Part shown: piece after piece, positions 47,552 through 62,570 of the stretch
How the letters are laid out: each line of letters starts with the position of its first letter
Position numbering within the stretch: the first letter of the stretch is position 1
Source of the DNA: Wenjunlia tyrosinilytica
GTDB taxonomy: Bacteria; Actinomycetota; Actinomycetes; Streptomycetales; Streptomycetaceae
DNA length: 64,000 nt
Assembly (NCBI RefSeq): GCF_014646055.1
Contig: NZ_BMMS01000016.1
Location: forward strand, 62,001 to 126,000
Reading direction: 5' to 3'
Translations under genes and position numbers: made by a program
The notes under the pieces: model-generated
The model's input: the letters and a program-made list of their open reading frames with translations, nothing else
Databases searched by the model: none
Told to the model about the DNA's origin: nothing

Positions 47552-47605
47552 TTCTCGGCTTCTCAACCCCGCTCGCGGGATGTGCTCAGCCCAGCGGCCT
47601 AGTCG

Positions 47606-47619
47606 AGGTAGTCGCGCAG
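47606..47619. other. att site, left junction
   Basis: 14-bp core aggtagtcgcgcag. The outward flank encodes (minus strand) the original last codons of hrdB (LRDYLD stop). The inward flank has a hairpin gacctgc/gcaggtc (47643-47662) that may be a recombinase arm region. Confidence 0.88.
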
Positions 47620-47696
47620 CATGAGCGGCTGAACGCTGTGCTTGACCTGCATAGACGCAGGTCGGAGCCGAGCGAGAGAGCCGAAATATCCTGGAT

Positions 47697-48044
47697 TCAC
47701 GTTCGCTCTCGGCGGTTGAGCCGGTAGATGCCGTACGTGATGCCCAGGATGATGTCCACGGCTGCCCATAGGCCGATCACGAGGCCAACGCCGATCGCGG
47801 TCCCGGCATCCCCGGCGTCCTTACACAGCTGAAGTGCGTCTCCGGTCAAGCCCTCGCAGGAGGGGTCATCGCTGCCGCTGTTCACGCCCACGATGATCCA
47901 GATCAAGAACAGCACCTGCACCGCAAGGAAGATCCAGAGGAAGATCCTGCGGGGCTTCTTCCTCTTAGCAACCGGGGCGGGGCCTAGGGGGTTCCCAGCC
48001 CCAGGGGGTGGCCGACCCCACTGTGGGGGCGGGGTGTCGGTCAT
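47697..48044 (-). CDS. Small membrane protein, 115 aa
   Basis: Pro/Gly-rich N-terminus, basic KRKKPRRIF, TM1 (~35-53) and TM2 (~80-103), with a short external loop holding a Cys pair (DPSCEGLTGDALQLCKDAG) that may form a disulfide. ATG 48044 has GGAGGAGG upstream. No recognised family; island cargo next to the left att. Confidence 0.75.
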   Translation of the reverse strand: MTDTPPPQWGRPPPGAGNPLGPAPVAKRKKPRRIFLWIFLAVQVLFLIWIIVGVNSGSDDPSCEGLTGDALQLCKDAGDAGTAIGVGLVIGLWAAVDIILGITYGIYRLNRRERT

Positions 48045-48381
48045 CAGTTAGGCCTCCTCCACGAGCAAGGCGGGGGCATACGATTTCACTGCGTAATCAA
48101 AACATTACGCCGGTGCCCTATCGCAAGCCTGATCGAGGACTGGCGGGACCTGTCGGAGGAAGATCGTCATGAAGCACAAGACCGCAAAGATTCGCTGTCC
48201 TCGGGGGCTCGTCATCCCCCGGTCAGACAGAGTGGGACTGTGACCATCGGGCGCACGCTGCCCCAGACGCTTTCGGGGAGGCGGAGACCGGCCAGGGGCG
48301 CCCGGGTTGCCTTCGGGCACTGTCAGAGCAAACACATGCGGCCCCACACGCGACTTCACGCATACGGGGCCGCATGTGCGC
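48045..48381. other. 337-bp region upstream of the small membrane gene
   Basis: Noncoding on both strands apart from meaningless short frames. Holds the hsdM terminator and presumably the membrane-protein promoter; gcgtaatcaaaacattacgc (48091-48110) has inverted ends gcgtaat/attacgc and may be an operator. Confidence 0.5.
48333..48378 (-). terminator. Terminator of the hsd operon
   Basis: Perfect 13-bp stem cacatgcggcccc/ggggccgcatgtg, 20-base loop, followed on the minus strand by TTTGCTCT. It lies 3 bases beyond the hsdM stop. Confidence 0.88.
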
Positions 48382-49935
48382 TCAGTCCGTGACGTGCGCT
48401 TCCTCCGCCGCCACGCTCAGCGCCTCGCCGCGGGCCTGTTGCAGCGTCTCTGCGATCGCGGCGAACTCCTCCAAGGCGGCCTGGAGGTCCTCGACGATCT
48501 CGGCGGCCAGCACCTCGGGCGTGGGAAGGTTGGCCGCGTCGTCGAGGCTCGGGTCGCGGAGCCAGGTGATGTCGAGGTTCGCCTTGTCGCGGGCCATCAC
48601 TTCCTCGTACGTGTACGCCTTGAAGCGTTCCGTCTCCACGCGCTTGGAGCGGTCCTCGTCAGCGCGGTAGCTCTGCACGAAGTCCTCAAGGTGGGTCCGG
48701 GTGAGCGGGTTCTGCTTGAGGGTGAAGTGCTGGGCCGTACGGAAGTCGTAGACCCACAGCTTCTCGGTCCACGGCTGGTTAGGCCGGGCCGGCTTGCGTT
48801 CGAAGAACAGGACGTTGGCCTTGACGCCGCCCGCGTAGAAGATGCCGGTGGGCAGGCGAAGCAGCGTGTGGACGTCGTACTCGTTCAGCAGACGCCGGCG
48901 GATGGTCTCACCCGCGCCGCCCTCGAAGAGCACGTTGTCGGGAACGACGACCGCAGCACGGCCGTGGATCTCCAGGAGCGAGGCGATGTGCTGCACGAAG
49001 TTGAGCTGCTTGTTGGTCGTGGTTACCCAGAAGTCGCGCCGTTCGTAGGCGATCGCCTCGCGGGCGGCGGAACCGTCGTCGCCGTAGACGGTGATGGACG
49101 ACTTCTTGCCGAACGGCGGGTTGGCCAAGACCAGGCTTGCCCGCTTGTCGGGCGGAGCGGCGAGGGCGTCCTTGGTACGAACCAAAGCAGGTCCGGTGGG
49201 CTGACCGATGCCGTGCAGGAAGAGGTTCATCGCAGCGAGACGGGCGGTGTTCTTGACCAGCTCAGTGCCCCAGATGCCGCCGCTGCTGAGGTGCTTGCGC
49301 TGCTCGGGGGTGAGCTGGTTGCCGTACTCGTGGAGGATGTACTCGGCCGCGGCCAGCAGGAAGCCGCCGGTTCCGCAGGCGGGGTCGGTAATGGTGTCGT
49401 CCGGGGTCGGGCGGACGCAGTCGATAATCGCCTGGATCAGCGGACGCGGGGTGAAGTACTGCCCTGCACCCGACTTGATGTCCTCCGCGCCCCGGGACAG
49501 CAGCTCCTCGTAGGCGTCGCCCTTGATGTCGGTCTTCTGTCCCGACCAGTTCTCCTTGTCGATCAGGTCCTTGACCAGGCGCTTGAGCTTGGCGGGGTCG
49601 TGGATGCGGTTCCGGGCCCCGTTGAAGATCAGGTGGAAGGTGGTGTCCTTGCGCTGGGCGCCGAGGTCTTCGAGGAGTTCGGTGTACGCGGCTTCGAGCG
49701 CGGCGCCGTTGTTGTTCAGCAGCTCGGGCCAGCCGCGGCCCTCCCAGACCGACCCCTCGGGCATGATCTGCTCGCGGAACATCGGCGGGCGGGACTGCGC
49801 CTCGTGCGCCATCTTGAGGAACACGAGCAGCGTCAACTGCTCGACGTAGTCAATGGTGGAGACGCCGTCGTCGCGCAGGACGTGGCAGTAGCTCCAAAGC
49901 TTGTCGACGAGCCGACGGGCCTCGGTCGTGGTCAC
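48382..49935 (-). CDS. hsdM: Type I restriction enzyme modification subunit HsdM
   Basis: 517 residues. N6-adenine methyltransferase: SAM motif DPACGTGGFLLAA, catalytic NPPFG. N-terminal HsdM_N helical domain (EARRLVDKLWSYCHVLRDDGV). C-terminal coiled helix (VEDLQAALEEFAAIAETLQQAR) for HsdS contact. Last gene of the R-S-M operon, overlapping hsdS by 4 bases. Methylates the host site and is required for restriction. Confidence 0.96.
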   Translation of the reverse strand: MTTTEARRLVDKLWSYCHVLRDDGVSTIDYVEQLTLLVFLKMAHEAQSRPPMFREQIMPEGSVWEGRGWPELLNNNGAALEAAYTELLEDLGAQRKDTTFHLIFNGARNRIHDPAKLKRLVKDLIDKENWSGQKTDIKGDAYEELLSRGAEDIKSGAGQYFTPRPLIQAIIDCVRPTPDDTITDPACGTGGFLLAAAEYILHEYGNQLTPEQRKHLSSGGIWGTELVKNTARLAAMNLFLHGIGQPTGPALVRTKDALAAPPDKRASLVLANPPFGKKSSITVYGDDGSAAREAIAYERRDFWVTTTNKQLNFVQHIASLLEIHGRAAVVVPDNVLFEGGAGETIRRRLLNEYDVHTLLRLPTGIFYAGGVKANVLFFERKPARPNQPWTEKLWVYDFRTAQHFTLKQNPLTRTHLEDFVQSYRADEDRSKRVETERFKAYTYEEVMARDKANLDITWLRDPSLDDAANLPTPEVLAAEIVEDLQAALEEFAAIAETLQQARGEALSVAAEEAHVTD

Positions 49936-51365
49936 GAGGGAATCTCCAGGTCAAGGGTGGGCTGAGTGGCGGCGGCCAGGGCGGATGTGTCGGTCGAGGG
50001 TGGCGGGGGTGCCAGTTCCGACGTGTGCGCGCGCTGAGCGGGTGCCCGTCGGGGGCTTCGGCGTCGGAACTTGCTCACTCCAGCCGCCTCGCGCTCGGCG
50101 CGGATACGGTCGAGCAGCGCATCGGCCGGCTCATTGGCGGGGTCCTGGGGGACCAGACGGCCAGCGAAGGCTTCCGCGAGGAGCGAGTGGCGGAGAGTGG
50201 CGCTTCGCCGTTTGCTGACGGACACAGTATGAGTGAGATGCCCGGCTTGTTGTTCGATGCTCGACCATTGAGTGCATAGCACTCGCTGAGTCGACAAGTC
50301 CGGCAACGGGAACTCAATCGAGCCGAGAATCTTCTGATTCACCTTGTAGATGCCCGCTGTGGTACGCGCCCGGCTTTCAATCTGACGCCTCACCGCAAGG
50401 GAAGACCAGATAGTGCGTAGATACTCGGGAAGGATCTTTTCGGTGTCGGGGCACGCTCGAATTACGGTGTCCGGGTAGGCGACCGGAATGGGAGCATTAA
50501 TAACGAGCGACCCCCGACCGACCAGAGAAAGCGAACCATTGCCGCGAGCGATGAGGAAGTCCCCTTGCCTAACTAGGAACGGCTCAGCATCGCTCGCCTC
50601 CCAGTCACCGTCTTTGTGTTGCGAAACGTCGACGTAGGTTTTAGATAGAGCTGTGAGGCGGAGCACAGGGAAGCCACCCTCGCGGGTCGGGACAGAGCGG
50701 CCATTCGTCAGACCGGAAGTCAAAACCTCACGCAGTTGGACAGGGGCATAGTCAGACGTCATCCTGTGGAGCGTTGCCTGGAGGTACCGATCAATACGAC
50801 GTCCCGTGATCTGAAGGGTTCCGCTGGCGGTGTCAAGCCGTGACAGCTGCTCGTCGAGCGCGGCAACGATGCGCCGCTGTTCCTCCAGGGGGGGCACTGG
50901 CACTAGCTGATTCAGAATGTCCTTGGATTTCGCGCGCGTATGGCTGCCGGTGGCACCCGACACGGCCCCGGTGATCCACTCGCGAAATGCAGGAGACGAC
51001 AGGTAGCGGCGAACGTATGGCGCCATCACAGCCTTGACCGATTCCGGAAAGCGCAAGACCAGCCACTCAGAGGATGCGATCTTAGGCCGTCTAGAGACCC
51101 CTGGCTTAGTTAGCCATACACGATTAATCCTTGGATTGATCTTGCAGACAAGCACGTCGTCCACAGCGGTCCGGAGTTTAGTACTTCCGATCTCTGCACC
51201 GTCGAGAATTTCTGGACGGCCCGTTGCAAAAGACGGCACACTCCAGAGCTCATACCTGGTGCCACCCTCTGGCGCCACTGCCTCCCGGCACTCGGTACCG
51301 AGGTCACCCAGGCGTACCCAAGCCCACCCCTTCGGCAGTTCCGAAGGAACACCGCCCTCACTCAC
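49932..51365 (-). CDS. hsdS: Type I restriction enzyme specificity subunit HsdS
   Basis: 477 residues, two target-recognition domains joined by helical spacers (first spacer PVPPLEEQRRIVAALDEQLSRL). Starts LPKGWAWVRLGDLG, a typical TRD opening. The DNA (50.2-51.3 kb) is clearly less GC-rich than its neighbours, as often for exchanged specificity modules. The C-terminal ~45 residues are a low-complexity tail. Recognition sequence not predictable. Overlaps hsdR by 4 bases. Confidence 0.93.
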   Translation of the reverse strand: MSEGGVPSELPKGWAWVRLGDLGTECREAVAPEGGTRYELWSVPSFATGRPEILDGAEIGSTKLRTAVDDVLVCKINPRINRVWLTKPGVSRRPKIASSEWLVLRFPESVKAVMAPYVRRYLSSPAFREWITGAVSGATGSHTRAKSKDILNQLVPVPPLEEQRRIVAALDEQLSRLDTASGTLQITGRRIDRYLQATLHRMTSDYAPVQLREVLTSGLTNGRSVPTREGGFPVLRLTALSKTYVDVSQHKDGDWEASDAEPFLVRQGDFLIARGNGSLSLVGRGSLVINAPIPVAYPDTVIRACPDTEKILPEYLRTIWSSLAVRRQIESRARTTAGIYKVNQKILGSIEFPLPDLSTQRVLCTQWSSIEQQAGHLTHTVSVSKRRSATLRHSLLAEAFAGRLVPQDPANEPADALLDRIRAEREAAGVSKFRRRSPRRAPAQRAHTSELAPPPPSTDTSALAAATQPTLDLEIPS

Positions 51366-54300
51366 GCGCCCAACTCCCGTCCCAGCTCATCCAAAATCTC
51401 AGCCCCTCGCTCGGCCCCGAACTCCCGAAGGAATCCATCCACACCCCCACGCTCGATGAAGGGTACGTCCTTCAAATGCTCGGGCTCGATCGCTGCATCT
51501 GTCGCTATCACATCCACGACCCGGTCGAGCCACCACACCTGATCCTCGGTGAACACCGCCCCCGCCTGTTCCTGCCGGGCCCGCCACGCCGCGTACCGTT
51601 CCTCTACCAGCGCCCGGTACGGCCGTACCTCCTCGTCCAGCCCCAACTCGAACCGCAGCAAGCCGATCAGGTCGACGACACCAGCTGCCCCCCGCGGATG
51701 CTGAGCTGCCTTACCCAGCTGCACGTACGCGTCGTACAGCCGCGCCGGAGTCCACTGGAACGGAGGACGCTCGATCTTCCGCGCGAGATCCCGCAGCCGC
51801 CGGTAGACCTCCTTCGGGTCACGCCGCTCACTGAACGCGATGCTGAACGCGGCGATCTCGTCCCGGTTGTCCTTCAGGTACTGCTGCCAGGAGGACACGC
51901 GCCGCATCGCCAGCTCGTCCGCCGTGATGCCGCGCGCCTCTTTCACCTCGTCCACGCTGACCTCGTCTATGACGATGTCGTGGGCGCGGCGCATCGACAT
52001 CAGCCGGTCGCGCAACTCACGGTTGGCGGCGATCGGCTTCAATGCCTCCAACATGTCCTGCCGGATCTGCTCCTGGCCGCCGATCCGCCGAGCCCTCTCC
52101 TGCTGGTCAGGGTCGACGGATCGGACCAGCCCGCCGACGATCTCCTGGAGCGGCTGGCCGGCGAGTTCCTGGACCTCCTCGCGCTCCTCGGGAGTGAGCT
52201 GCCGGTCGAGGCGCGCCAAGCGGCCCGCCAGCGTGGCGACCTCGTCCTCCGTCAGCGCCAGTCCGGCCGTCTTGGCCATCAGCCGCTCCAGCGGGATCTT
52301 CCGCTCGGAGACACGGTTGAGCGGGCGCGCGTCCACACGCGGCGAGTCCGTGACACCGACCGCGTCGACGATCACGAACCGCTCCTTGACCTCGGCGTCG
52401 GGCGTGACCGCCTGAAACTCCGCGGGGTCGATCGTCCGCGAACCCCGGCCCTTCATCTGCTCGAAGTAGGCCCAGCTCTTGACGTCCCGCAGAAAGAAGA
52501 CACACTCCAGCGGCGGGATGTCAGTGCCCGTGGCGATCATGTCCACGGTCACCGCGACACGCAGCTCGGGGCTGTTGCGGAATGCCTTGATGAGTTCGGC
52601 GGGGCGCTTCGCGGCGTGGGTGATCTTCATGCAGAAGTCGTCGCTCTCACCGAAGACCTGCCGCACCATCTGGACGATCTCGTCGGCGTGGTTGTCGTCC
52701 GCCGCGAAGATCAGCGTCTTGGGCACATGCGTACGCGACCGTTGGACCTCACCCTCGCCCACCGGCGGGAAGATGTCCGTGTAAAGGTGCTGGCGGAAGG
52801 TCTCGATGACGAGCTTCAGTTGGCCCTTGCTGATGACCTGGCGGCCCAACTGGGACGCCTTCCACTCCAGGTCCTCCTCCAACTCCTGGTACCGCTCCCG
52901 CCGGGTCTTCCGCTCCCGCATCGGCACTACCGTCTCGGCGGGGATCGTTCCGCCGTTCTCCCCCAGTTCCGTACGGATCCGGAAGACGTCGAAGTCGACG
53001 TTGACTCCGTCGGCGACGGCCTGCTCGTACGGGTACTCGCTGACCAGGTTCTGGAAGAAGAACCCAAAGGTCTGCATGACCGGAGTGGCGGTCAGGCCGA
53101 TCAGGTGGGCGTCGAAGTACTCAAGAACCGCTCGCCACTTGCCGTAGATGGAGCGGTGGCACTCGTCGACGACGATGAGGTCGAAGGACTCCGGCGGCAG
53201 GGCCGGATTATAGCCGACCCCCACCGGCTCGTCAACGAGGTCGTAGCGGTCTAGCGCCTCGGTGTTGTCGTCAGCGCTCGGCACCGCCTGGCCGGTCAGC
53301 GCGAGCCACAGCCGCTGCACGGTGGACACCACCACGTGTGCGGAACCGAGGACGGTGTCGCCAGCGAGGCGCTGCACGACGTATAGCTCGGTGAACTTCC
53401 GGCCGTCGTCCGGAGTGTCGAAGTTCTCGAACTCGGTGGCGGCCTGGCTGCCCAAGTTGTTGCGGTCGACGAGGAACAGCACACGCTTTGCGCCCGCGTG
53501 CTTGAGCAGCCGGTAGCTCTCGCTAACCACCGTGTACGTCTTCCCGGCGCCGGTTGCCATCTGGATCAGGGCGCGCGGGTCGTCCTTGGCCAGGGAGCGC
53601 TCCAGGCCGGTGATAGCCGTCCTCTGAGCCGGGCGCAGCGGGTCCGGGTCGAGGAAGGTCTGCGGCAGGCGGCGCATCCGGGCGCGCAGGGTCGGCGCGG
53701 CGGGGTCGGCCTCAGCCTCGTCGATCCAGCGGGCGATCGTCTCCGGCCGGTGCACGGCGAACACTTCACGCGTGCGCGGAGAGGGGTCGAGCGCGTTGTG
53801 GAAGCGGACGGTGTTGCCGTCGGCCACGTATCGGAAGGGCAGGCTGGCACGCCAGGCGCTGAGCTGCTGGCTGCGGGTCAGCCCCGTGGCATAGCGCGCG
53901 GCCTGCTGCATGGCGGCCTCGAGGTCGGCGCCCTCCCGCTTGGCCTCTATGACCCCGACCAGGCGCTGGTCTACGTAGAGCAGGTAGTCGGCGCGGCCGA
54001 CGGCTGTGGAGACCTCCCGGACGGCGACGCCGCGCTCCTCCGCGAAGAGGTTCTTGGCGCTGTCGTCCTGGACGGCCCAGCCCGCCTTCTCCAGGATGCG
54101 GTCCAGCTCGGTACGGACCTGCGCCTCGCTCATCGGCGGACGGGCCGCCTTCTGCGCGTAGGCGATGAACTCGTCGCGCTGCGACGCTCCGTCCAGCGGC
54201 CGGGCGGTGGTACGCGAGTCCAGGACCGGGGCGGTCAACTCGGTGATTTTGTCGCTCAGTTCAGCGATCACGTCGCGCAGAGCAGCCCGCTCTGCCTCGG

Positions 54301-54952
54301 CACGAGCCAGTTCCGCCTCGGCCTGAGCGCGGGCGGCCTGCTCGCGCTCCAGCCGGCTCTGCTTGCCGTCGTAACGGAGCCGGGCCACCTCCAGCTTCTG
54401 GCGGTAGGCATCGAGTTCGGCGCGAAGCTGCTCCAACTCCTGTGCGTCGGCGGCCGTCTCGGGGTCGGGCAAGGCGGACGGGGGCGCGGGCGCCAGGAAG
54501 ACGCGGTGCATGGTGTCGGACTGGTCGAGGGAGCGGTGCAACCAGTCGCCGAGTCGGAAGCACGCCTCCACAGCCTGGAGCGCGGCGCGCACGTTGGCGT
54601 AGTACTCGTGGACCGCCCGGTTGCCCGTCGTGCGGATCCCCTCGAACCACGCACGCACCTGGGGAACGAGAACATCCGCCCCGGTCAGGGCATTGATGCG
54701 GTCAACCTGCCTGTTGCCGGGAACGGTGACATTGACCAGGGTGACGAGGTGCTTTGCCATGATCTCGCCGAAGAGGCGAGCCTTCACCATGGCCGCATGA
54801 GGATCGGTGTGGACGTACGACTCCGCTGCGCAGCCCAGCGTCACCAGTAATGGCTCGTGGCCGAGCAGGTGGCCAAAGTTGGACGATCCCGCGGCCAACC
54901 GCGCGACCTGCTCGTCGTCCCCACCGAACGGGCCAACCGCCGCCGTCACCAT
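51362..54952 (-). CDS. hsdR: Type I restriction enzyme endonuclease/translocase subunit HsdR
   Basis: 1196 residues. N-terminal ~1-130 DUF4145-like domain, coiled coil ~175-245 (RLEREQAARAQAEAELARAEAERA), HSDR_N nuclease with ADYLLYVDQRLVGVIEAKREG, SF2 helicase motifs: QMATGAGKTYT (Walker A), VVDECHRSIYGKW (DECH), motif VI region MKGRGSRTIDP. C-terminal EcoEI-type domain. ATG 54952 after GAGGGGAAACGC. First gene of the operon; it must be controlled so that methylation precedes restriction. Confidence 0.95.
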   Translation of the reverse strand: MVTAAVGPFGGDDEQVARLAAGSSNFGHLLGHEPLLVTLGCAAESYVHTDPHAAMVKARLFGEIMAKHLVTLVNVTVPGNRQVDRINALTGADVLVPQVRAWFEGIRTTGNRAVHEYYANVRAALQAVEACFRLGDWLHRSLDQSDTMHRVFLAPAPPSALPDPETAADAQELEQLRAELDAYRQKLEVARLRYDGKQSRLEREQAARAQAEAELARAEAERAALRDVIAELSDKITELTAPVLDSRTTARPLDGASQRDEFIAYAQKAARPPMSEAQVRTELDRILEKAGWAVQDDSAKNLFAEERGVAVREVSTAVGRADYLLYVDQRLVGVIEAKREGADLEAAMQQAARYATGLTRSQQLSAWRASLPFRYVADGNTVRFHNALDPSPRTREVFAVHRPETIARWIDEAEADPAAPTLRARMRRLPQTFLDPDPLRPAQRTAITGLERSLAKDDPRALIQMATGAGKTYTVVSESYRLLKHAGAKRVLFLVDRNNLGSQAATEFENFDTPDDGRKFTELYVVQRLAGDTVLGSAHVVVSTVQRLWLALTGQAVPSADDNTEALDRYDLVDEPVGVGYNPALPPESFDLIVVDECHRSIYGKWRAVLEYFDAHLIGLTATPVMQTFGFFFQNLVSEYPYEQAVADGVNVDFDVFRIRTELGENGGTIPAETVVPMRERKTRRERYQELEEDLEWKASQLGRQVISKGQLKLVIETFRQHLYTDIFPPVGEGEVQRSRTHVPKTLIFAADDNHADEIVQMVRQVFGESDDFCMKITHAAKRPAELIKAFRNSPELRVAVTVDMIATGTDIPPLECVFFLRDVKSWAYFEQMKGRGSRTIDPAEFQAVTPDAEVKERFVIVDAVGVTDSPRVDARPLNRVSERKIPLERLMAKTAGLALTEDEVATLAGRLARLDRQLTPEEREEVQELAGQPLQEIVGGLVRSVDPDQQERARRIGGQEQIRQDMLEALKPIAANRELRDRLMSMRRAHDIVIDEVSVDEVKEARGITADELAMRRVSSWQQYLKDNRDEIAAFSIAFSERRDPKEVYRRLRDLARKIERPPFQWTPARLYDAYVQLGKAAQHPRGAAGVVDLIGLLRFELGLDEEVRPYRALVEERYAAWRARQEQAGAVFTEDQVWWLDRVVDVIATDAAIEPEHLKDVPFIERGGVDGFLREFGAERGAEILDELGRELGA

Positions 54953-55445
54953 GCGTTTCCCCTCAAAGTGCTGGTCGATATGTCAGTGCAAAGCCTTACA
55001 GGATGACATGAACAGGCAGCGCTGACAAGGACGTTAGGCGATGCAGCGTGTTCGGCGGGTTCAGTGCGTCCTGGAAGGAGACTCATCGGGCATGTGTCAG
55101 CACGACCGAGTAGCACTGCAAAGGGCACTCCGTCGGGTCCTCATGCACATCTTTGGGCTCGCCTTTCGGAGCTGGACGTCAGGCTGATGCGGTACCACTC
55201 CCGCGAGACCATCCAACGCACGAGGGCCCCTACGGCTGCGCGCCCATATTCACGGCAGCGGAACCGCGGATCGGTGGCGGCCGGGTTGATCTCGCCGGTG
55301 AACGGCTGCCGATGTCATGGCCTGACAGCCGGGGCAGAAGAAGCCCTCCGCGTCAGCAGCTTGGCGTGACGCGGCATTGGCCACGACCACCGCCGGTCGC
55401 GGGCCACTCACGGCAGGGTCTCCCATCGACGAATGAGTTTCTTGA
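54953..55445. other. Divergent region, hsdR / T-box-aspS
   Basis: About 490 bases with no credible gene. hsdR promoter must lie here (minus); TTGTCA/CATCCT at 54995-55035 is a weak candidate. Fragments of protein-like frames on both strands match nothing I recognise. Confidence 0.45.
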
Positions 55446-55475
55446 TTGCCACAGTCACCACACGCTCCGTATTCT
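55446..55475 (+). promoter_or_regulatory. Promoter of the T-box-aspS transcript
   Basis: TTGCCA (55446-55451), 18-base spacer, TATTCT (55470-55475): a good sigma-70-like (HrdB) promoter. Predicted start about 55482, right at the 5' side of T-box stem I. Confidence 0.6.
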
Positions 55476-55481
55476 GCTGGG

Positions 55482-55749
55482 CAACGCGTTGACGGAGACG
55501 AGTAGCCACGGAACACGCGAGCCGAGAGAGCCGCCGGAAGCTGGGAAGGCGGTCTCGCGTCCCGAGGCGAAGACCCTCCTGAGCGCGGGGAGGAACGACC
55601 CCGCCTGGTGGTCCAATGCCCTGCCGGCTGGCCCCCGTCACCGGGCCCGAATGAGGCCGCCACCATGTGGCGGCGAAAGTGCGGTGGTACCGCGAGTTGC
55701 CCTTCTCGCCCGCACTCCCAAGGGATCATGACGACGTCCTTCGGAGGAC
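55482..55749 (+). ncRNA. T-box leader sensing tRNA-Asp
   Basis: Stem I: base ggag/ctcc (55494-55497, 55576-55579), S-turn AGTA (55501-55504) opposite GAA (55569-55571), then specifier GAC (55572-55574, Asp). Upper stems gcc/ggc, cgcgag/ctcgcg, ccgcc/ggcgg and an AGAGAG bulge (55525-55530) are all present. The T-box GGTGGTACCGCG is at 55683-55694 inside an arm agtgcgg/ccgcact (55678-55684, 55710-55716). It ends in a small hairpin gtcct-tcgg-aggac that covers part of the ribosome site, pointing to translational control as in actinobacterial ileS T-boxes. Confidence 0.9.
55736..55749 (+). promoter_or_regulatory. UUCG hairpin masking the aspS ribosome site
   Basis: GTCCT-UCGG-AGGAC, a 5-bp stem with a cUUCGg-type loop; AGGA of the Shine-Dalgarno GGAGGA is in the 3' arm, 5-9 bases before ATG 55754. 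Likely the sequestering element of the T-box switch. Confidence 0.6.
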
Positions 55750-55753
55750 CGAA

Positions 55754-57064
55754 ATGATCCACAGCCGCGTACACGTCTCCGACCTGCGAGAACACGTCGG
55801 CCGTACCGTTTCTGTCTGCGGGTGGGTGAACACACTCCGCCTGCAGCGCAAGATGCAGTTCGTCATCGTTCGGGACAACACCGGCATGGTGCAGGTGACC
55901 CATAAGCGTGACTACGGGCCGTTGGAGGCTCAGCTCGAATCCCTCACTCCCGAGTCCGCAGTCAAGATCACCGGCCGTGTCGTCGACGCCGCTCAGGTCA
56001 AACTCGGCGGCCTGGAGATCGTCCCCGAGGCGGTTGAGGTCTTGAACCTGGCCGCTTCGCCGCTGCCGATCGACGAGCACACCGGCCTGGAGCAGCGGCT
56101 GGACTGGCGGTTCCTGGACGTGCGCCGCCGTCCCGCCACCCAGCTGATGTTCGCCGTGCAGACCACCCTGGAGCAGGGAATGCGCGAGTACGCCTATGCG
56201 CAGCGCGCCACGGAGATGCACACTCCCAAGCTGATGGGTACCGCCTCGGAATCCGGCGCGGAGGTCTTCGAGCTGGGCTACTTCGACCGCAGCGCCTATC
56301 TGGCGCAGTCGCCTCAGTTCTACAAGCAGATGGCGATCTCGGCCGGGATCGAGAAGGTCTTCGAGATCGGCCCCGTCTTCCGCGCCGAACCGTCGTTCAC
56401 CTCCCGGCACGCCACCGAATTCACCGGCGTCGACGTGGAGTTGGCCTGGATCGGCGGCGTCGAGGACGTGATGGCGTTCGAGGAGCAGATGCTCGCCCAT
56501 GCGATCGCCAAGGTCACCGACGCGCACGGCGAGGCAATCCGTGAGCACTTCGGCGTCGAGGTCACCGTCCCCACGACGTCCTTCCCTCGCATCACGATGG
56601 CCGAGGCGCACGAGATCCTGTGCAAGGGCGGCTGGGACCCGGAGGGGGTGAAGGAGGACCTGGACCCGGAGGGCGAGCGGAGTATCTCGGCTCACATCAA
56701 GGAGGCCACCGGCCACGAGTTCGTGTTCATCACGCACTACCCGGTCGGCATCCGGCCCTTCTATCACATGCGGCCAGCCGATGACCCGAGCGTGACCTTG
56801 AGCTTCGACCTGCTGTGGAAGGGGCTGGAGGTAACCACCGGCGCCCAGCGTGAGCACCGGTACGACGTGCTGCTGAAGCAGGCCGCCGAGAAGGACATGA
56901 GCACCGAGCCGCTGCAGGACTACCTGAACGCGTTCCGATACGGGTGCCCGCCGCACGGTGGGCTCGGCATGGGCCTCGGCCGGGTGCTGATGGTGATGCT
57001 CGGCCTGGACTCCATCCGCGAGGCCACCTTCCTCTTCCGCGGGCCGAACCGGCTCACCCCGTAA
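55754..57064 (+). CDS. aspS: Aspartyl-tRNA synthetase, archaeal/eukaryal type (second AspRS)
   Basis: 436 residues, shorter than the ~590-residue bacterial AspRS because it lacks the GAD insertion. N-terminal OB anticodon domain (VSVCGWVNTLR...FVIVRDNTGMVQVT), class II motif 2 (FRAEPSFTSRHATEF), flipping-loop-like QSPQFYKQ, motif 3 GLGMGLGRVLMVML. By eye the position of the Trp linked with strict Asp specificity in archaeal enzymes is Asn (GWVN), while the KLG Lys is kept; tRNA-Asn mischarging is therefore open. ATG 55754 with GGAGG. Horizontally acquired cargo. Confidence 0.92.
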   Translation: MIHSRVHVSDLREHVGRTVSVCGWVNTLRLQRKMQFVIVRDNTGMVQVTHKRDYGPLEAQLESLTPESAVKITGRVVDAAQVKLGGLEIVPEAVEVLNLAASPLPIDEHTGLEQRLDWRFLDVRRRPATQLMFAVQTTLEQGMREYAYAQRATEMHTPKLMGTASESGAEVFELGYFDRSAYLAQSPQFYKQMAISAGIEKVFEIGPVFRAEPSFTSRHATEFTGVDVELAWIGGVEDVMAFEEQMLAHAIAKVTDAHGEAIREHFGVEVTVPTTSFPRITMAEAHEILCKGGWDPEGVKEDLDPEGERSISAHIKEATGHEFVFITHYPVGIRPFYHMRPADDPSVTLSFDLLWKGLEVTTGAQREHRYDVLLKQAAEKDMSTEPLQDYLNAFRYGCPPHGGLGMGLGRVLMVMLGLDSIREATFLFRGPNRLTP

Positions 57065-57075
57065 CCGGCCGCGCG

Positions 57076-57124
57076 GGCTGCGTCCCACGACACGGGCCAG
57101 TGCCTCGTGTCGTGGGACGCAGCC
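57076..57124. terminator. Bidirectional terminator, aspS / JmjC gene
   Basis: Perfect 19-bp stem (57076-57094 with 57106-57124), 11-base loop. It fills the whole gap between the two convergent genes, ending at the JmjC stop codon. Confidence 0.92.
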
Positions 57125-57934
57125 TCAGTAGCGGACATTGCGCAGGTCATGCGTCCACGCCTCGGCGGGGTTCCTATCCCAGTAGGCCCGCAGCGCCAGC
57201 TCCCGCTCGGAGAAGCCGCCCTGGTGGCACAGGCCACCGTGGGAGAGGGTGACGCTCATGGCGAGAGTCGACTCGGTGGTGACCCAGTGGGGTGTCAGCG
57301 CGTGGCTCCAGAGCTGGTCCCCGGGCTGCATGGTGACGGACTGGCGGTCGCCCGCATCGTGCTCGGGCGGGTCCTCGCCAGTGGTCTCGCCGATGACCGC
57401 CGCTTCGGCCGGCAGGTGCTTGTCGGGGTCGAGGTAGCCGTGGAAGGTCTTGGTGCCGTGGACCTGCCAGACAAAGCCGTGCGAGTTGTCGTTGTGGTAG
57501 GTCGAGGCGGCACCCTCGGTGGACAGGAACAGGATCGGCGCCAGGCGCTGCCAGGCGAAGCCCTGGGCGGACAGGTGGGTGCGCCAGGGGATCATGACCT
57601 CTTCCTGGAAGCCGTGCAGAAGGTCGTCGTAGAAGCGGCTGAGGTTGAAGTGCACCAGCCGGAACGGCCAGGTGACGACCTCCTCGATCGGCGCGGTGCG
57701 GAGGGCAGCGGTGCGATCCATGCGCACCTGCCAGTCGTCGTCCCCGAGGATCGTGAACCGGACCTCCTCATCGCTACGGATGTGGTCGAGGATGTCGATG
57801 GCGGGCAGGAACGTGTAGTCGAAGCCGGCCTCCATCGGGAAGTTCGGCGGCTGCCGCCACCGCTGGGTGAAGTCTTCGGGTGTCGTGATCGTCATAGATC
57901 GGTCCATGGGGTCGTGTGCGCTGGGCCGCTTCAT
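57125..57934 (-). CDS. JmjC/cupin-type Fe(II)/2-oxoglutarate oxygenase
   Basis: 269 residues. Metal facial triad: HxD in STYHNDNSHGFVWQVHG with the distal His in DQLWSHALTPHWV; FHGY Lys/Tyr region for 2-oxoglutarate. Such enzymes hydroxylate peptides, proteins or small molecules. ATG 57934 overlaps the radical-SAM stop (ATGA), but later Met (MDRSMTITT) are also possible. Last gene of a SPASM-radicalSAM-JmjC operon. Confidence 0.78.
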   Translation of the reverse strand: MKRPSAHDPMDRSMTITTPEDFTQRWRQPPNFPMEAGFDYTFLPAIDILDHIRSDEEVRFTILGDDDWQVRMDRTAALRTAPIEEVVTWPFRLVHFNLSRFYDDLLHGFQEEVMIPWRTHLSAQGFAWQRLAPILFLSTEGAASTYHNDNSHGFVWQVHGTKTFHGYLDPDKHLPAEAAVIGETTGEDPPEHDAGDRQSVTMQPGDQLWSHALTPHWVTTESTLAMSVTLSHGGLCHQGGFSERELALRAYWDRNPAEAWTHDLRNVRY

Positions 57935-58838
57935 GCCGGTGCGGTACACGAAGCACTGCGGTCGTCGGATGTGGTGGAGGGGCGGCAGATGGCAGCGCAG
58001 TCCGGGGTCACCCGGTCCTGTGCCGGGGCGGTCAGGAAATGTCTGATCGCGGCCCGGGGAGCGTGGACGCTGACGGATGCCTGGCCGTAGGGGCAGCGCC
58101 GTATGGAGCCGTCTGCGGATACGTACGCGGTCGCCGAACGGCATGGCCACCGCTCTCCCCCATCCGATGGGGACTGAAGGTCCTTAAGCTCGCCGAGGTA
58201 GGTGCTGTATCGGTCGGACAGGTTGAAGTAGCGGTCCAGCCGATCGGCGTCGAGGTGGTGCTGCATCAGGTAGTCCTGGACCGACTTGCCCTCGCGGCGT
58301 AGGTCGCGCTCGTCGAGGACGACGGGGCTGAACTGGACCTCCACCCCGGCCTCGGACACGAGGCCGGCCAGCTCCTGACACTCGCCATCGCGCAGGCCCC
58401 AACAGGTGACGTGAAGGATCTTCGTCTCGGTGCCGATGGCGCTCAGCGTGTCGAGGCCCGAGGTCGCGGTGCGAGTGGTGCGGCCCAGCAGCATCGCGCC
58501 TTGCGAGTCGGCAGAGACGGTCACGTTGGCCAGCAGATGCGCCACCTCGGAGAGGGCGACGACCTCCGCGACGGTGCGGGCTGAGGTCACCATCGACACC
58601 GATATGCCGAACTGGTGGGCCAGTCGGATGAGTTGCCGGAGCTGCGGGTGATGGGTCGGCTCGCCGCCAGTCAGGCACACCCCCTCCCCCCCCCCGCCTC
58701 CTTCAGCCGCGACAGGAGGCGGGCGTAGGTCGCGGTATCCAGGAAGCCGTGAGCGCGGTCGGCTCGGAAGCAGAACCCGCAGGCCACCTTGCAGTGCCCG
58801 GCCGTGGACACCAGCGCGGTGCGTACATGGGTGTTCAT
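57931..58838 (-). pseudogene. Radical SAM enzyme, reading frame broken at a 10-C run
   Basis: Frame 1 (from ATG 58838) gives MNTHVRTALVSTAGHCKVAC then GFC (CxxxCxxC) and runs to RLKEAGGGRGCA-stop. Frame 2 continues the fold with VCLTGGEPTHHPQLRQLI and an Fe-S-type C-terminus (RRCPYGQ; PDCAAIC). They meet at ten C (58686-58695); one more base restores a 302-residue protein with AGGGEGVCLTGGEP. Either a sequence error, a phase-variable tract or a true mutation. Start overlaps the upstream gene's stop (ATGA). Confidence 0.82.
58686..58695. repeat. 10-C homopolymer in the radical-SAM gene
   Basis: Ten consecutive C, preceded by CCCCT. Adding one base restores the reading frame. Confidence 0.95.
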
Positions 58839-59341
58839 TGCACTCCCGTGTTGTCCCACACCGCGATCTCCACGGTGCTCGTGTAGAACGCGCACATCTC
58901 CGGATCCGGGGTGCTGCCGCCGATGAGGACCTGCTCGTTGCGGGACGGCCCGCCGCAGATGGCGAGTGCCGGGCAGTTCCCGCACTCGGGGATGGGTGCA
59001 ACCCTCTTCGCCACGCTGGCCAGGAGGCCGGGATTGGCCCGCAACTCGTCGAGAGTGTGCAGGAACGTCGGCTCGGTGAAGTTGATGTCGCACAGGCTGA
59101 CCCGATTGCCAGGCAGCAGGGCGGCGTTCAGGCTGCGGTCGCCCTGCATGTGGTCGAACAGCATCGGCCGCCGAGTGTCGAGGCCCTGGAACGCGCGGTC
59201 CAGGGCGGAGTCGGGGATGGTCGGCTGGACGACTAGGGCGGCTTCACCATCAAACATGGTTAGACTGATGTCGAAGTTCTCTTGGTGGCCCCCGGTATTC
59301 GCGTCCCGGGGGTCGCTGCTGTTATGCGGCACCGCAACCAC
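58835..59341 (-). CDS. SPASM-like Cys protein of the radical-SAM operon
   Basis: 168 residues. C-terminal Cys motif CGNCPALAICGGPSRN then MCAFYTS resembles the auxiliary Fe-S region of SPASM proteins, but no radical SAM core is present. The N-terminal part (SLTMFDGEAALVVQPTIP; FDHMQGDRSLNAALLPGNRV) is not recognised. GTG 59341 overlaps the preceding gene by 20 bases; ATG 59257 is an alternative, since a hairpin cccccgg/ccggggg (59289-59312) precedes it. Probably a substrate-binding partner, or a split remnant of a larger maturase. Confidence 0.6.
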   Translation of the reverse strand: MVAVPHNSSDPRDANTGGHQENFDISLTMFDGEAALVVQPTIPDSALDRAFQGLDTRRPMLFDHMQGDRSLNAALLPGNRVSLCDINFTEPTFLHTLDELRANPGLLASVAKRVAPIPECGNCPALAICGGPSRNEQVLIGGSTPDPEMCAFYTSTVEIAVWDNTGVQ

Positions 59342-59600
59342 CGCCGTTCCGGTCGGCAGCTTTGGCGGCGCGGGCCTTGCTGGAGGCCAGGGCGAGGCGC
59401 TGGAAGTACGCCTTCCGTGCGTGTTCTGCGCGGCGTGAGCGCTCGCCAGGGGTAAGTACGCCGTCCGGGTCCACCTCGCGCTCGAAGCGGCTCAGGAAGG
59501 CCGTGCGGGCCGGGCAGGTGTGCGCAGTGGGGTCGTCGACCTTGGACCAGAGGGAATGCGCGCCGAGTGTCGCACGGATACGTCGCTGTTCGGGGGTCAC
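59322..59600 (-). CDS. Small basic protein, 92 aa
   Basis: Starts MTPEQRRIRATLGAHSLWSK and has FEREVDPDGVLTPGERSRRAEHARKAYF, a helical pattern common in small proteins of Streptomyces integrative elements. GTG 59600 has AGGAGGCTGCCC. Function unknown; possibly DNA binding. Leads the radical-SAM operon. Confidence 0.75.
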   Translation of the reverse strand: MTPEQRRIRATLGAHSLWSKVDDPTAHTCPARTAFLSRFEREVDPDGVLTPGERSRRAEHARKAYFQRLALASSKARAAKAADRNGGGCGAA

Positions 59601-59646
59601 GGGCAGCCTCCTGGCTACCCGGTATGCCCTTACCGGAAGTTCGACG

Positions 59647-59982
59647 CTACGTCGTGGCGATCATAGAAAGCACAGCGTTGTTGACCCTACCACGAAGCGC
59701 CTCTTGAACATCGGCAGTGGTCACGCGCCCCCAGCCGTGTATCTCGCATAGCGCCCGGAGCGTGTCAGGCACGTCCACGGCGGAGCGGGTCCGGTGCGTG
59801 AGGTATACCCCGCCGAGATCTTTGCGGTCGCGTCCCAGCCTCCTGCCGCCGCGCCGGTCGGTCACAACCCACCGGACCGACCCCGGTTCGGTGCGCTCCA
59901 GGCGACCGAGCTTATTGGGGCGGGAAAGTCCCTCGGCGGTGCACTCGCCGCACCAAATAGTGCACAGGACAACGGGTTCCAT
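59647..59982 (-). CDS. Small protein with CxxC, 111 aa
   Basis: MEPVVLCTIWCGECTAEGLS: Cys7 and CGEC may bind metal; the rest is basic (TDRRGGRRLGRDRK), ending in a helical segment (TTADVQEALRGRVNNAVLS). ATG 59982 overlaps the integrase stop and has GGGGGACC upstream. Could be a recombination directionality or regulatory factor by position, without sequence proof. Confidence 0.65.
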   Translation of the reverse strand: MEPVVLCTIWCGECTAEGLSRPNKLGRLERTEPGSVRWVVTDRRGGRRLGRDRKDLGGVYLTHRTRSAVDVPDTLRALCEIHGWGRVTTADVQEALRGRVNNAVLSMIATT

Positions 59983-60878
59983 CACAGGTCCCCCAGGTTC
60001 AACCGCCGTGCCTCTTCGACAGCCCGGCGCTCAGACGACGCACGGGTGTACCTGTCCAGCATGTCGCGCCGCGTCCATCCGGCAACGGCCATTAGCCCGC
60101 CCTCGCTGCCGCCGGCCGCCAGCCACCTGGACGCCGCCGTGTGGCGCATCCGGTGAGGGTGAAAGCCATCGATACCGGCCCGCTCCGCCCGGCCCTTCAG
60201 GGCGACGTACAGGCCGTCATAGCTGAAGCCCTTGCCCCGGTCGCCGAGCCACAGGGCGGGCGTGGCGGCGAGTTGGTGCGAACGCCGGAGCCTGAGGTAC
60301 CGGTCGATGGCGCGGCCGGTCTGCGCGCCGAAAGGCACCGTGCGCCCATTGCCGCCCTTGCCCTTCCGGATGACCGCGGCGCCCGCCCTCAGATCCACGT
60401 CGGCCACGGCCATCGCCACGACCTCTCCGGCACGTGCCCCGGTCTCGATCATGAGCCGGACGAGCGCCTCGTCCCGCCGGTCGCGGAAGTCCTTCCCGCC
60501 GCACGCCTTGATCAGAGCCCGGAGCTGGTCGTCGTCCAGCTCGTTGATCACCTTCACGTCCAGCTTCGGCGGCTTGAGACCGACGAGTTCATCGTTGTCG
60601 GTCTCGCCCTCCTCGGCCAGCCATGCCGAGAACCGACGGACGGCGAGCTGGCGTGACCTGCCCGTCGCGGGCTCGGCCCCGCTGTCCAGCAGTGCAGATA
60701 CGAAGGCGTTCACCGTAGGCCGGTCGAGGGTGGGTGCAGTGCCGGTCGCCTCGCACCAGCGCAGGAAGGCGCGGACACCGTCGCCATAGGTCTTGAGCGT
60801 CTGGGCGCTCTTTCGCTCGGCTGCCAAGTGCAGAGTCCAGGAGTCCAGAAGCGCATATATATCCGAATATCCATTCAT
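59982..60878 (-). CDS. Tyrosine recombinase (integrase)
   Basis: 298 residues. SAM-like N-terminal domain (~10-95; TLKTYGDGVRAFLRWCEATG) and catalytic domain with Arg in ETGARAGEVV, Lys in RKGKGGNGRTVP, HRMRHTAASRWL (His-x-x-Arg-His), and nucleophile Tyr in RRDMLDRYTRA. Reads away from hrdB, 117 bases from its stop. It should catalyse recombination at the hrdB 14-bp core. Confidence 0.95.
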   Translation of the reverse strand: MNGYSDIYALLDSWTLHLAAERKSAQTLKTYGDGVRAFLRWCEATGTAPTLDRPTVNAFVSALLDSGAEPATGRSRQLAVRRFSAWLAEEGETDNDELVGLKPPKLDVKVINELDDDQLRALIKACGGKDFRDRRDEALVRLMIETGARAGEVVAMAVADVDLRAGAAVIRKGKGGNGRTVPFGAQTGRAIDRYLRLRRSHQLAATPALWLGDRGKGFSYDGLYVALKGRAERAGIDGFHPHRMRHTAASRWLAAGGSEGGLMAVAGWTRRDMLDRYTRASSERRAVEEARRLNLGDL

Positions 60879-60943
60879 ATCGCCCGAGGGTACCCACGGT
60901 CGAATGAAATATCTCGACTAGGAGCGCTGTGCAGGCAACAGAA

Positions 60944-60980
60944 ACGCCCCCGACCCGCAAGGTTCGCAGGTCAGGGGCGT
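60944..60980 (-). terminator. Island-borne terminator replacing that of hrdB
   Basis: acgcccc-c-gacc pairs with ggtc-a-ggggcgt, loop ccgcaaggttcgca; read on the minus strand it is followed by TTTCTGTT. It lies 15 bases after the hrdB stop, inside the island. Confidence 0.8.
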
Positions 60981-60995
60981 CGGTAGAGGTTTGAC

Positions 60996-62570
60996 TTAAT
61001 CCAGGTAGTCGCGCAGAACCTGCGACCGGGAGGGGTGGCGCAGCTTCGACATGGTCTTGGACTCGATCTGGCGGATCCGCTCGCGGGTGACCCCGTAGAC
61101 CTTGCCGATCTCGTCCAGTGTCTTCGGCTGGCCGTCGGTGAGGCCGAAGCGCATGGAGACCACGCCCGCCTCACGCTCGGAGAGGGTGTCGAGCACCGAG
61201 TGCAGCTGCTCCTGAAGGAGCGTGAAGCTCACCGCGTCGGCCGGGACGACCGCCTCGGAGTCCTCGATCAGGTCGCCGAACTCGCTGTCGCCGTCCTCGC
61301 CGAGCGGGGTGTGCAGCGAAATCGGCTCGCGGCCGTACTTCTGGACCTCGATGACCTTCTCCGGGGTCATGTCGAGCTCCTTGGCCAGTTCCTCCGGGGT
61401 GGGCTCGCGGCCCAGGTCCTGGAGCATCTGGCGCTGGACGCGGGCCAGCTTGTTGATGACCTCGACCATGTGCACCGGAATACGGATGGTGCGGGCCTGG
61501 TCGGCCATGGCGCGGGTGATCGCCTGGCGGATCCACCACGTGGCGTACGTGGAGAACTTGTAGCCCTTGGTGTAGTCGAACTTCTCCACCGCGCGGATCA
61601 GGCCGAGGTTGCCCTCCTGGATCAGGTCCAGGAAGAGCATGCCGCGGCCGGTGTAGCGCTTGGCCAGGGAGACCACAAGCCGGAGGTTGGCCTCCAGCAG
61701 GTGGTTCTTGGCGCGGCGGCCGTCCTCGGCGATGATCTCCAGCTCACGCTTGAGCTTGGGGGCGAGCTTGTCGGCACTGGAGAGCTTGTCCTCAGCGAAC
61801 AGGCCTGCCTCGATGCGCTTGGCGAGCTCCACCTCCTGCTCGGCGTTGAGCAGCGGGACCTTGCCGATCTGCTTGAGGTAGTCCTTCACCGGGTCGGCGG
61901 TGGCGCCGGCCGCGGCGACCTGCTGCGCGGGGGCGTCGTCCTCGTCCTCGTCGGACAGCACGAAACCCTCGGACTCGGGGCCCTCCGGCTGACCCTCCTC
62001 ACCGGGCTTGCCCGGCGCGGCGGCCTCCTCGAGCGCCTCCTCGCCCTCGACGGGCTCCTCGCCCTTCTTGGCGGTGGCCTTTTTGGCGGTCTTCTTGGCC
62101 GCGGTCTTCTTCACGGCGGTCTTCTTCGCAGCAGCGGCGGCCTTGACCGGCGCCTCGGGCGCGGCGGTCTCCTCCGCCTCGGTGTCGACCGGTGCCTCGA
62201 CGACAGCGGTCTTCGGAGCGGCCACGGTCTTCGCGGCCGCGGTCTTCTTGGTCGCGGCGGTCTTCGCGGCAACTGTCTTGGTGGCGGTGCGCTTCGCCGG
62301 GCTCTTGGCTGCGACGCTCTTACGGGTGCGCTTCGGAGCCGCCGAATCCGCGGCACTGACCATCAGCGTCACACCCTCCTCGTCGAGGACCTGGTTGAGG
62401 CTGCGCAGAACGTTCTTCCACTGGGTTGCCGGGATCTGGTCCGCTTCGAAGGCCTGGCGCACGTCATCGCCGGCGATCTGGCCCTGCGCCTTGCCCCGCT
62501 CGATGAGAGCCTGCAGATGCACGGACTCGGCGATCTCCGGCGGGAGCGTACGGGATGTGCTGGCCGACAC
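60996..62570 (-). CDS. hrdB: Principal sigma factor HrdB
   Basis: 524 residues, group 1 sigma70. Region 1.1-like N-terminus ([16 protein letters not shown]), long Lys/Ala repeats ([12 protein letters not shown]) and acidic linker, then regions 1.2-4.2: [16 protein letters not shown], region 2 [20 protein letters not shown], 4.2 [23 protein letters not shown] 62570 is preceded by GAGAGGTTGTTC. The last codons (LRDYLD) come from the inserted island: CTG GAT TAA instead of the displaced CTC GAC TAG. Protein unchanged. Confidence 0.97.
61003..61016. other. att site, right junction inside hrdB
   Basis: 14-bp core aggtagtcgcgcag within the last hrdB codons; identical to 47606-47619, while both flanks differ. 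Confidence 0.9.

Follow-up and report, generated by a model that had tools for sequence, protein, structure and literature searches.

What role does a T-box riboswitch play before an additional aspartyl-tRNA synthetase (AspRS) gene on a mobile element of Wenjunlia tyrosinilytica, and which tRNA does it read? The T-box landmarks named in an earlier note (AGUA, GAA, GAC, AGAGAG and the T-box sequence) are all present in the window, the 64,000-nucleotide stretch of DNA analysed here (Table 1). The comparison with Rfam model RF00230 that the note proposed gave a full-length match (model positions 1-219 of 219, 76.1 bits, E 8.3e-17; cmscan of 55300-55800, 501 nt) and upheld the T-box claim, although not at the curated level: the leader falls 17 bits short of the gathering score of 93, and because of this a gathering-level Rfam scan of the entire window returned no match at all. 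All model elements are aligned, as in other RF00230 leaders, whereas the low score, the GC-rich leader and the sequestrator set it apart from typical ones. Chance is further excluded by conservation of the leader before the same gene and by covariation, and on comparison with the family model the leader before AspRS2 is a genuine T-box. As the sequestrator takes in the start codon, the functional leader should extend past 55749 to about 55760. Across the whole genome, RF00230 finds two T-boxes, the AspRS leader and one (59.4 bits) at locus L002, where the gene 3' of it, cut off, has ileS (TIGR00392) as its best model.

Table 1 Features of the T-box locus and the surrounding island (positions in the window)
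Feature	Position	Strand	Basis or remark
Genomic island, 3' end of sigma-factor gene	47600..61016	.	20-nt repeat 18/20; uninterrupted site in G001
Type I restriction-modification genes (methyltransferase, specificity, endonuclease)	48382..54952	-	Pfam N6_Mtase, HsdM_N, Methylase_S, HSDR_N, EcoEI_R_C over cut-off
T-box leader, full-length Stem I to antisequestrator	55480..55716	+	RF00230
AGUA, 5' strand of specifier-loop S-turn	55501..55504	+	sequence and RF00230 alignment
AGAGAG, distal Stem I elbow-binding module	55525..55530	+	RF00230 alignment
GAA directly 5' of specifier	55569-55571	+	sequence and RF00230 alignment
Specifier GAC (Asp), supported	55572..55574	+	GAAGAC in 59/60 aligned leaders; SerRS leaders fix register
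F-box hexamer	55635..55640	+	RF00230 alignment; identical to the N. farcinica F-box quoted in the accessible part of PMC7583486
Stem III	55656..55674	+	8 pairs, double changes at 7
Antisequestrator	55678..55716	+	A1 55678-55684/55710-55716; A2 55692-55696/55705-55709; 3/7 A1 pairs double-changed
UGGUACC bulge, inside GGUGGUACCGCG	55685-55691	+	sequence and RF00230 alignment
CCCUU, antisequestrator loop, candidate pseudoknot strand 1	55700..55704	+	identical in 26/26
AAGGG, linker, candidate pseudoknot strand 2	55720..55724	+	identical in 26/26; overlaps sequestrator foot
Sequestrator hairpin	55723..55760	+	pairs SD GGAGGA 55743-55748 and start codon 55754-55756; -15.5 kcal/mol alone
AspRS2, archaeal-type aspartate--tRNA(Asn) ligase, 436 aa	55754..57064	+	NF003483 471.9 bits, TIGR00458 377.6 bits
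JmjC/cupin-like protein	57125..57895	-	85-89% identical over 256 aa in closest loci
Radical-SAM protein, frame interrupted	57934..58895	-	two tblastn pieces, 58895-58692 and 58677-57934
Radical-SAM/SPASM RiPP-maturase-like protein, C-terminal fragment	58838..59272	-	residues 289-433 of L013 protein only
Tyrosine integrase	59982..60878	-	PF00589

The amino acid that is sensed depends on the reading register. In the genome's ileS leader (GAA-G-AUC-A) one base separates GAA from the specifier, and since the corresponding strand of the Asp leaders is one base shorter, a Thr register (GAA-G-ACC) was considered, in which the reading is shifted one base downstream and the specifier would be ACC or ACA. 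In 59 of 60 aligned leaders (59 T-box loci and the window) the sequence is GAA-GAC-(C/A)-CU(C/U), the exception being L045, which is without its 5' half; divergent Asp leaders with GAA-GAC-A-CUC number five in this alignment, with more beyond it. At the same place, leaders before seryl-tRNA synthetase (SerRS) genes read GAA-UCC-C-CUC (L038, L074) or GAA-UCC-A-CUC (L100), and the gene that follows in L038 passes the serS model TIGR00414. Together, the SerRS leaders and the Asp leaders with GAC-A fix the register and support GAC (Asp) as the specifier, as had been assigned earlier. Shifting the SerRS leaders by one base would instead give Pro codons, and all downstream genes checked are AspRS-like or SerRS, so a Thr specifier is hardly credible and was ruled out by the SerRS leaders reading GAA-UCC. 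The specifier codon agrees with the downstream gene in both cases (GAC/AspRS here, UCC/SerRS in relatives). The variable base of UGGN is C in 35, U in 21 and A in 4 of the 60 leaders. The discriminator of tRNA-Thr is A73, for which UGGC is unfit. By contrast, the tRNA-Asp (GUC) of this genome has G73, read from its sequence, with which UGGC would pair and the UGGU of the window would wobble, while UGGA is unpaired; the prevalence of C and U is fitting for tRNA-Asp.

The gene product, AspRS2, scores over cut-off with both NF003483 and TIGR00458 and is by model a predicted archaeal-type nondiscriminating AspRS. It is a second AspRS, because the genome also has a canonical bacterial one on contig C3 (TIGR00459, 710.6 bits), and the description of an extra AspRS holds in this sense. 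Neither of the two RF00230 matches in this genome lies at the canonical gene. A bacterial AspRS over cut-off was found in 22 of the 23 genomes searched, including all 11 with a T-box AspRS.

For the mode of control, 26 leaders picked for spread were aligned, and Stem III, antisequestrator and sequestrator were scored for covariation. Of all cells, 97.7% are paired and double changes occur at 11 of 32 pairs, a level that none of 500 shuffles reached, and slid versions of the alignment gave only 0-5 double-changed pairs. Both the antisequestrator and the inner sequestrator helix covary, one inner sequestrator pair occurring as U-A in 14 leaders and as C-G in 9. The outer sequestrator helix shows no double change among the 26, partly because it overlaps codons 1-3. 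As in translational T-boxes, the SD lies within the sequestrator and there is no terminator; inspection of the sequence 3' of the hairpin found no U-run, which makes translational control likely. Control is probably translational, with a conserved hairpin that buries the SD and the start codon. The long Stem I could speak for transcriptional control, as transcriptional T-boxes require one and few translational T-boxes have one according to the accessible part of PMC7583486. However, not only does the hairpin lack a U-run, it also spans SD and AUG with pairs kept across the 26 leaders, and the ileS T-box of the same genome, also with a long Stem I, pairs its SD, which leaves transcriptional control very improbable.

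Translational control raises the matter of how the two folds exclude each other. The partition-function calculations cover nested folds only, to which pseudoknots are invisible, and in these folds the antisequestrator of the window costs 0.0-0.1 kcal/mol while SD pairing stays at 0.57. In contrast, the antisequestrator of the ileS control leader costs 5.5 kcal/mol and CCUCCG pairs with its SD, although even there SD pairing drops merely from 1.00 to 0.85. In nested folds of the window the antisequestrator does not open the sequestrator and no classical strand exchange is seen, whereas the ileS control shows exchange by energy. The cost has a median of 0.2 kcal/mol among 98 leaders and is at most 2 kcal/mol in 75 of them and above 2 in 23. 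Some relatives seem to keep part of the classical exchange, since forcing the antisequestrator gives an SD pairing that is lower by at least 0.1 than blocking the T-box strand does in 10 of 26 leaders (L038, L041, L043, L049, L053, L055, L057, L059, L060 and L066). Five relatives before AspRS-like genes (L102-L104, L106 and L107), in which the long Stem I motif was not seen, have antisequestrator costs of 5.4-11.0 kcal/mol and combine classical strand exchange by energy with loop-linker complementarity; RF00230 gives no match to L102, L103 or L106.

With so small an energy cost, window-type leaders should need a further link between antisequestrator and sequestrator. Pairing of CCCUU in the antisequestrator loop with AAGGG in the linker may provide it: this pseudoknot shares two G's with the sequestrator foot and would in this way couple the states. 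At least four contiguous Watson-Crick pairs between loop and linker are possible in all 98 parsed leaders (99 matches, L045 being unparsed), including the variants CCCUG:CAGGG (L101), CCCG:CGGG (L103), AGCCC:GGGCU (L104), GGCCC:GGGCC (L106) and CCCC:GGGG (L105). When 47 unique loop-linker pairs were permuted, 0 of 2000 permutations were as high (4.96 observed vs 4.64), and with one representative for each of 11 classes 50 of 5000 were (4.45 vs 3.90). Crossed combinations of 10 divergent pairs also reach four in 57 of 90 cases, and as the GGG core hardly varies, the support, though real, is modest. The geometry is tight, with a linker of 3-4 nt that must span about 12 base pairs. The single ileS leader examined showed no such candidate pseudoknot. 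The accessible part of PMC7583486 describes a Stem IIA/B pseudoknot and contains no loop-linker pseudoknot. Another candidate, anti-SD pairing of CCCUUC with the SD of the window (-7.0 kcal/mol), was set aside as it leaves the invariant linker AAG unexplained. Since the antisequestrator leaves the sequestrator closed in nested folds, switching in the window would depend on the candidate pseudoknot or on some different tertiary interaction.

The T-box family is widespread in Actinobacteria and reaches beyond the island of W. tyrosinilytica. A search of genome contigs gave 295 AspRS loci, and of the best 80 (L007-L086), 59 carry UGGNACC just 5' of the AspRS gene. A covariance model built on the T-box 3' domain (E 1e-6, strict filters) detected it in 53 of 297 genomes of the family and 19 of 394 of the class, own genome counted. 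This model was run on 98 sources, comprising the window, the ileS locus L002, 45 of the 47 loci that the family and class scans had given (all but L089 and L114) and 51 of the 59 T-box loci (all but eight). It gave 99 matches, all 5' of synthetase genes (96 AspRS-like, 3 SerRS), and none in L002. These rows are not independent, as some loci look like the same genomes (e.g. L109 and L032). On an AspRS tree of 97 rows (FastTree; without L064, which was excluded deliberately, without L084, which has no called ORF, and without one of 19 added relatives because of its length) the T-box label changes 2 times, compared with 17.7 when shuffled. The same T-box and gene, 80.7% identical, are found on a 790-kb Streptomyces plasmid. 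The SerRS T-boxes with specifier UCC lie at L038:3043-3158, L074:3042-3157 and L100:1501-1626; in L038 and L074 a T-box AspRS lies about 3 kb away. Several AspRS relatives among L063-L085 lack a T-box (e.g. L067, L071, L078, L079 and L082); in some of them a short GCAAC...GUUGC inverted repeat, seen by eye, surrounds the SD and might be another control element.

The setting of the locus agrees with its description as a mobile element. The sequence TAGTCGAGGTAGTCGCGCAG at 47600 recurs with 18 of 20 positions at 60997, 13,397 bp apart, and corresponds to the 3' end of a sigma-70 gene, which we take to be hrdB. In the sibling genome G001, relatives of the flanking serine protease and sigma factor stand about 0.3 kb apart and represent the uninterrupted site. 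Based on the integrase, the restriction genes, the repeat and these close flanks, a 13.4-kb island is well supported.

Within the island, AspRS2 is followed by the remains of a gene cluster that elsewhere lies 3' of the AspRS gene in convergent orientation and encodes a JmjC/cupin-like protein, a radical-SAM protein, a 433-aa radical-SAM/SPASM protein and a 119-aa protein. The L013 homologue of the JmjC/cupin-like protein matches Cupin_8 and JmjC_2 below their cut-offs. In the window the N-terminal part of the SPASM protein is absent, and tblastn found no relative of the 119-aa protein (best E 0.55). A long C-run near 58690 breaks the radical-SAM frame, either as an assembly error or as real inactivation. 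Among the best 80 of 295 loci, the SPASM protein lies beside 27 of 59 T-box loci vs 0 of 21 loci without a T-box (Fisher 3.5e-5, relatedness ignored). At the other 32 it was not seen in the stretch examined, and 3 of these have a JmjC fragment only; loci ending less than 2.4 kb after the gene are uninformative for the cluster (T-box loci L027, L038, L047, L059 and L066, and others L069 and L083). The SPASM protein occurs in 7 of 297 family genomes, in five of which (G000, G414, G418, G494 and G496) a T-box lies within about 8 kb. In G414 and G418 the T-box AspRS near the cluster belongs to another subfamily and shares only 37-39% identity with AspRS2. G416 and G625 each show three of the four cluster genes and no AspRS in the 20 kb examined; in G625 a fused glycyl-tRNA synthetase (GlyRS) lies about 3.5 kb upstream with YcaO/TfuA genes nearby, and RF00230, which also misses L102, L103 and L106, finds no T-box there. 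The stretch L138:4324-19568 has relatives of the radical-SAM, SPASM and 119-aa proteins together with YcaO, TfuA and a fused alpha-beta glycyl-tRNA synthetase, and no AspRS in the 20 kb examined. Biphenomycin clusters, which also combine JmjC and radical SAM, were rejected as a counterpart in a comparison by description only; the term 'tRNA synthetase' is absent from the accessible text of PMC12707348.

We favour, with a probability of roughly 0.6, the reading that AspRS2 is an inducible, inhibitor-tolerant spare AspRS under a translational T-box that reads tRNA-Asp via GAC. Uncharged tRNA-Asp would accumulate and bind the specifier with its anticodon and the UGGU bulge with its free 3' end, locking the antisequestrator and freeing SD and start codon of AspRS2, whereas charged tRNA would be unable to lock it. 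The coupling would come about as loop CCCUU takes, with linker AAGGG, two G's from the sequestrator foot. An inhibitor of the normal AspRS, originating from the radical-SAM/JmjC cluster or from neighbours, would lower Asp-tRNA charging and induce AspRS2, which would tolerate the inhibitor that blocks the normal enzyme. What is observed of this purpose is the linkage to the cluster; an inhibitor with a tolerant target seems favoured because the cluster recurs with different synthetases. As the cluster is truncated in this genome, the AspRS2 gene would act here as a carried resistance gene. Such an arrangement would resemble the indolmycin-resistant TrpRS1 of Streptomyces, an inducible spare enzyme that tolerates the inhibitor and is expressed in response to the charging of tRNA. 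To our knowledge, TrpRS1 (Trp) is not under a T-box. A Streptomyces nucleoside acts on Plasmodium AspRS, as stated in the accessible part of PMC12262901, so AspRS inhibitors from Streptomyces exist. Against a role in resistance stand that no inhibitor is known for the cluster, that the SPASM protein is not visible at the 32 T-box loci mentioned and that the G416 and G625 clusters have no AspRS nearby.

The same 32 loci, together with the broken cluster in the window, would agree with a plain reserve role of AspRS2 when aspartate or asparagine runs short, free of any antibiotic link and with the cluster as a passenger, and the accessible part of PMC7583486 presents T-boxes as regulating amino-acid metabolism. 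This is rather unlikely, however, given that the canonical AspRS of this genome has no RF00230 match, that the T-box is mobile and patchy (the 53 of 297 family genomes) and that two AspRS subfamilies, and also GlyRS, are found with the cluster. Alternatively, the physical linkage to the radical-SAM, JmjC-like and conserved 119-aa proteins could mean that AspRS2 does not confer resistance but provides the Asp-tRNA that a tRNA-dependent reaction of the cluster would consume. This is quite improbable: none of the four conserved cluster members was recognised as belonging to a tRNA-dependent ligase family, GlyRS can stand near the cluster instead, and a T-box response to uncharged tRNA fits a shortage better. 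Extending the inhibitor-tolerant spare AspRS to the whole family, mobile Asp- and Ser-reading translational T-boxes might open their sequestrators through the loop-linker pseudoknot without strand exchange and drive inhibitor-tolerant spare synthetases as protection from radical-SAM/JmjC antibiotics of ribosomal origin that target aminoacyl-tRNA synthetases, a possible but tentative generalisation.

Translational ileS T-boxes of Actinobacteria were reportedly treated by Sherwood in 2015. According to the accessible part of PMC1262725, actinobacterial T-boxes before ileS sequester the SD, and the leader described here is like these translational T-boxes, of which the same genome has one, in its sequestered SD without a terminator. 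It is unlike them in its Asp (in relatives Ser) specifier and its accessory AspRS or SerRS. The class I LysRS T-box of Bacillus cereus (accessible part of PMC2916919) likewise precedes a second, non-canonical synthetase, but belongs to Firmicutes and to Lys. A survey that reports 32 T-boxes, spread over 12 of the 19 actinobacterial genomes considered, names ileS in its accessible part (PMC2494555), and Actinobacteria were scanned with a class II model for TBDB, as far as the accessible text of PMC7778990 tells. In a limited, mostly open-access literature no description of Asp or Ser T-boxes of Actinobacteria was found, and TBDB may list one. The earlier impression that such an element seems undescribed thus stands for the publications searched, TBDB entries aside, but not as a peculiarity of this island, as the element belongs to a common actinobacterial family.

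For Actinobacteria, Ile is the published case of a translational T-box that we found; the present leaders add Asp and Ser, and their specifier changes in step with the synthetase (GAC/AspRS, UCC/SerRS). They also provide a test case for how a translational T-box switches when its two folds hardly compete. If AspRS2 indeed confers resistance, T-box-driven spare synthetases would serve genome mining as a pointer to antibiotics that act on aminoacyl-tRNA synthetases, and the radical-SAM/JmjC cluster would be the first candidate for such mining.
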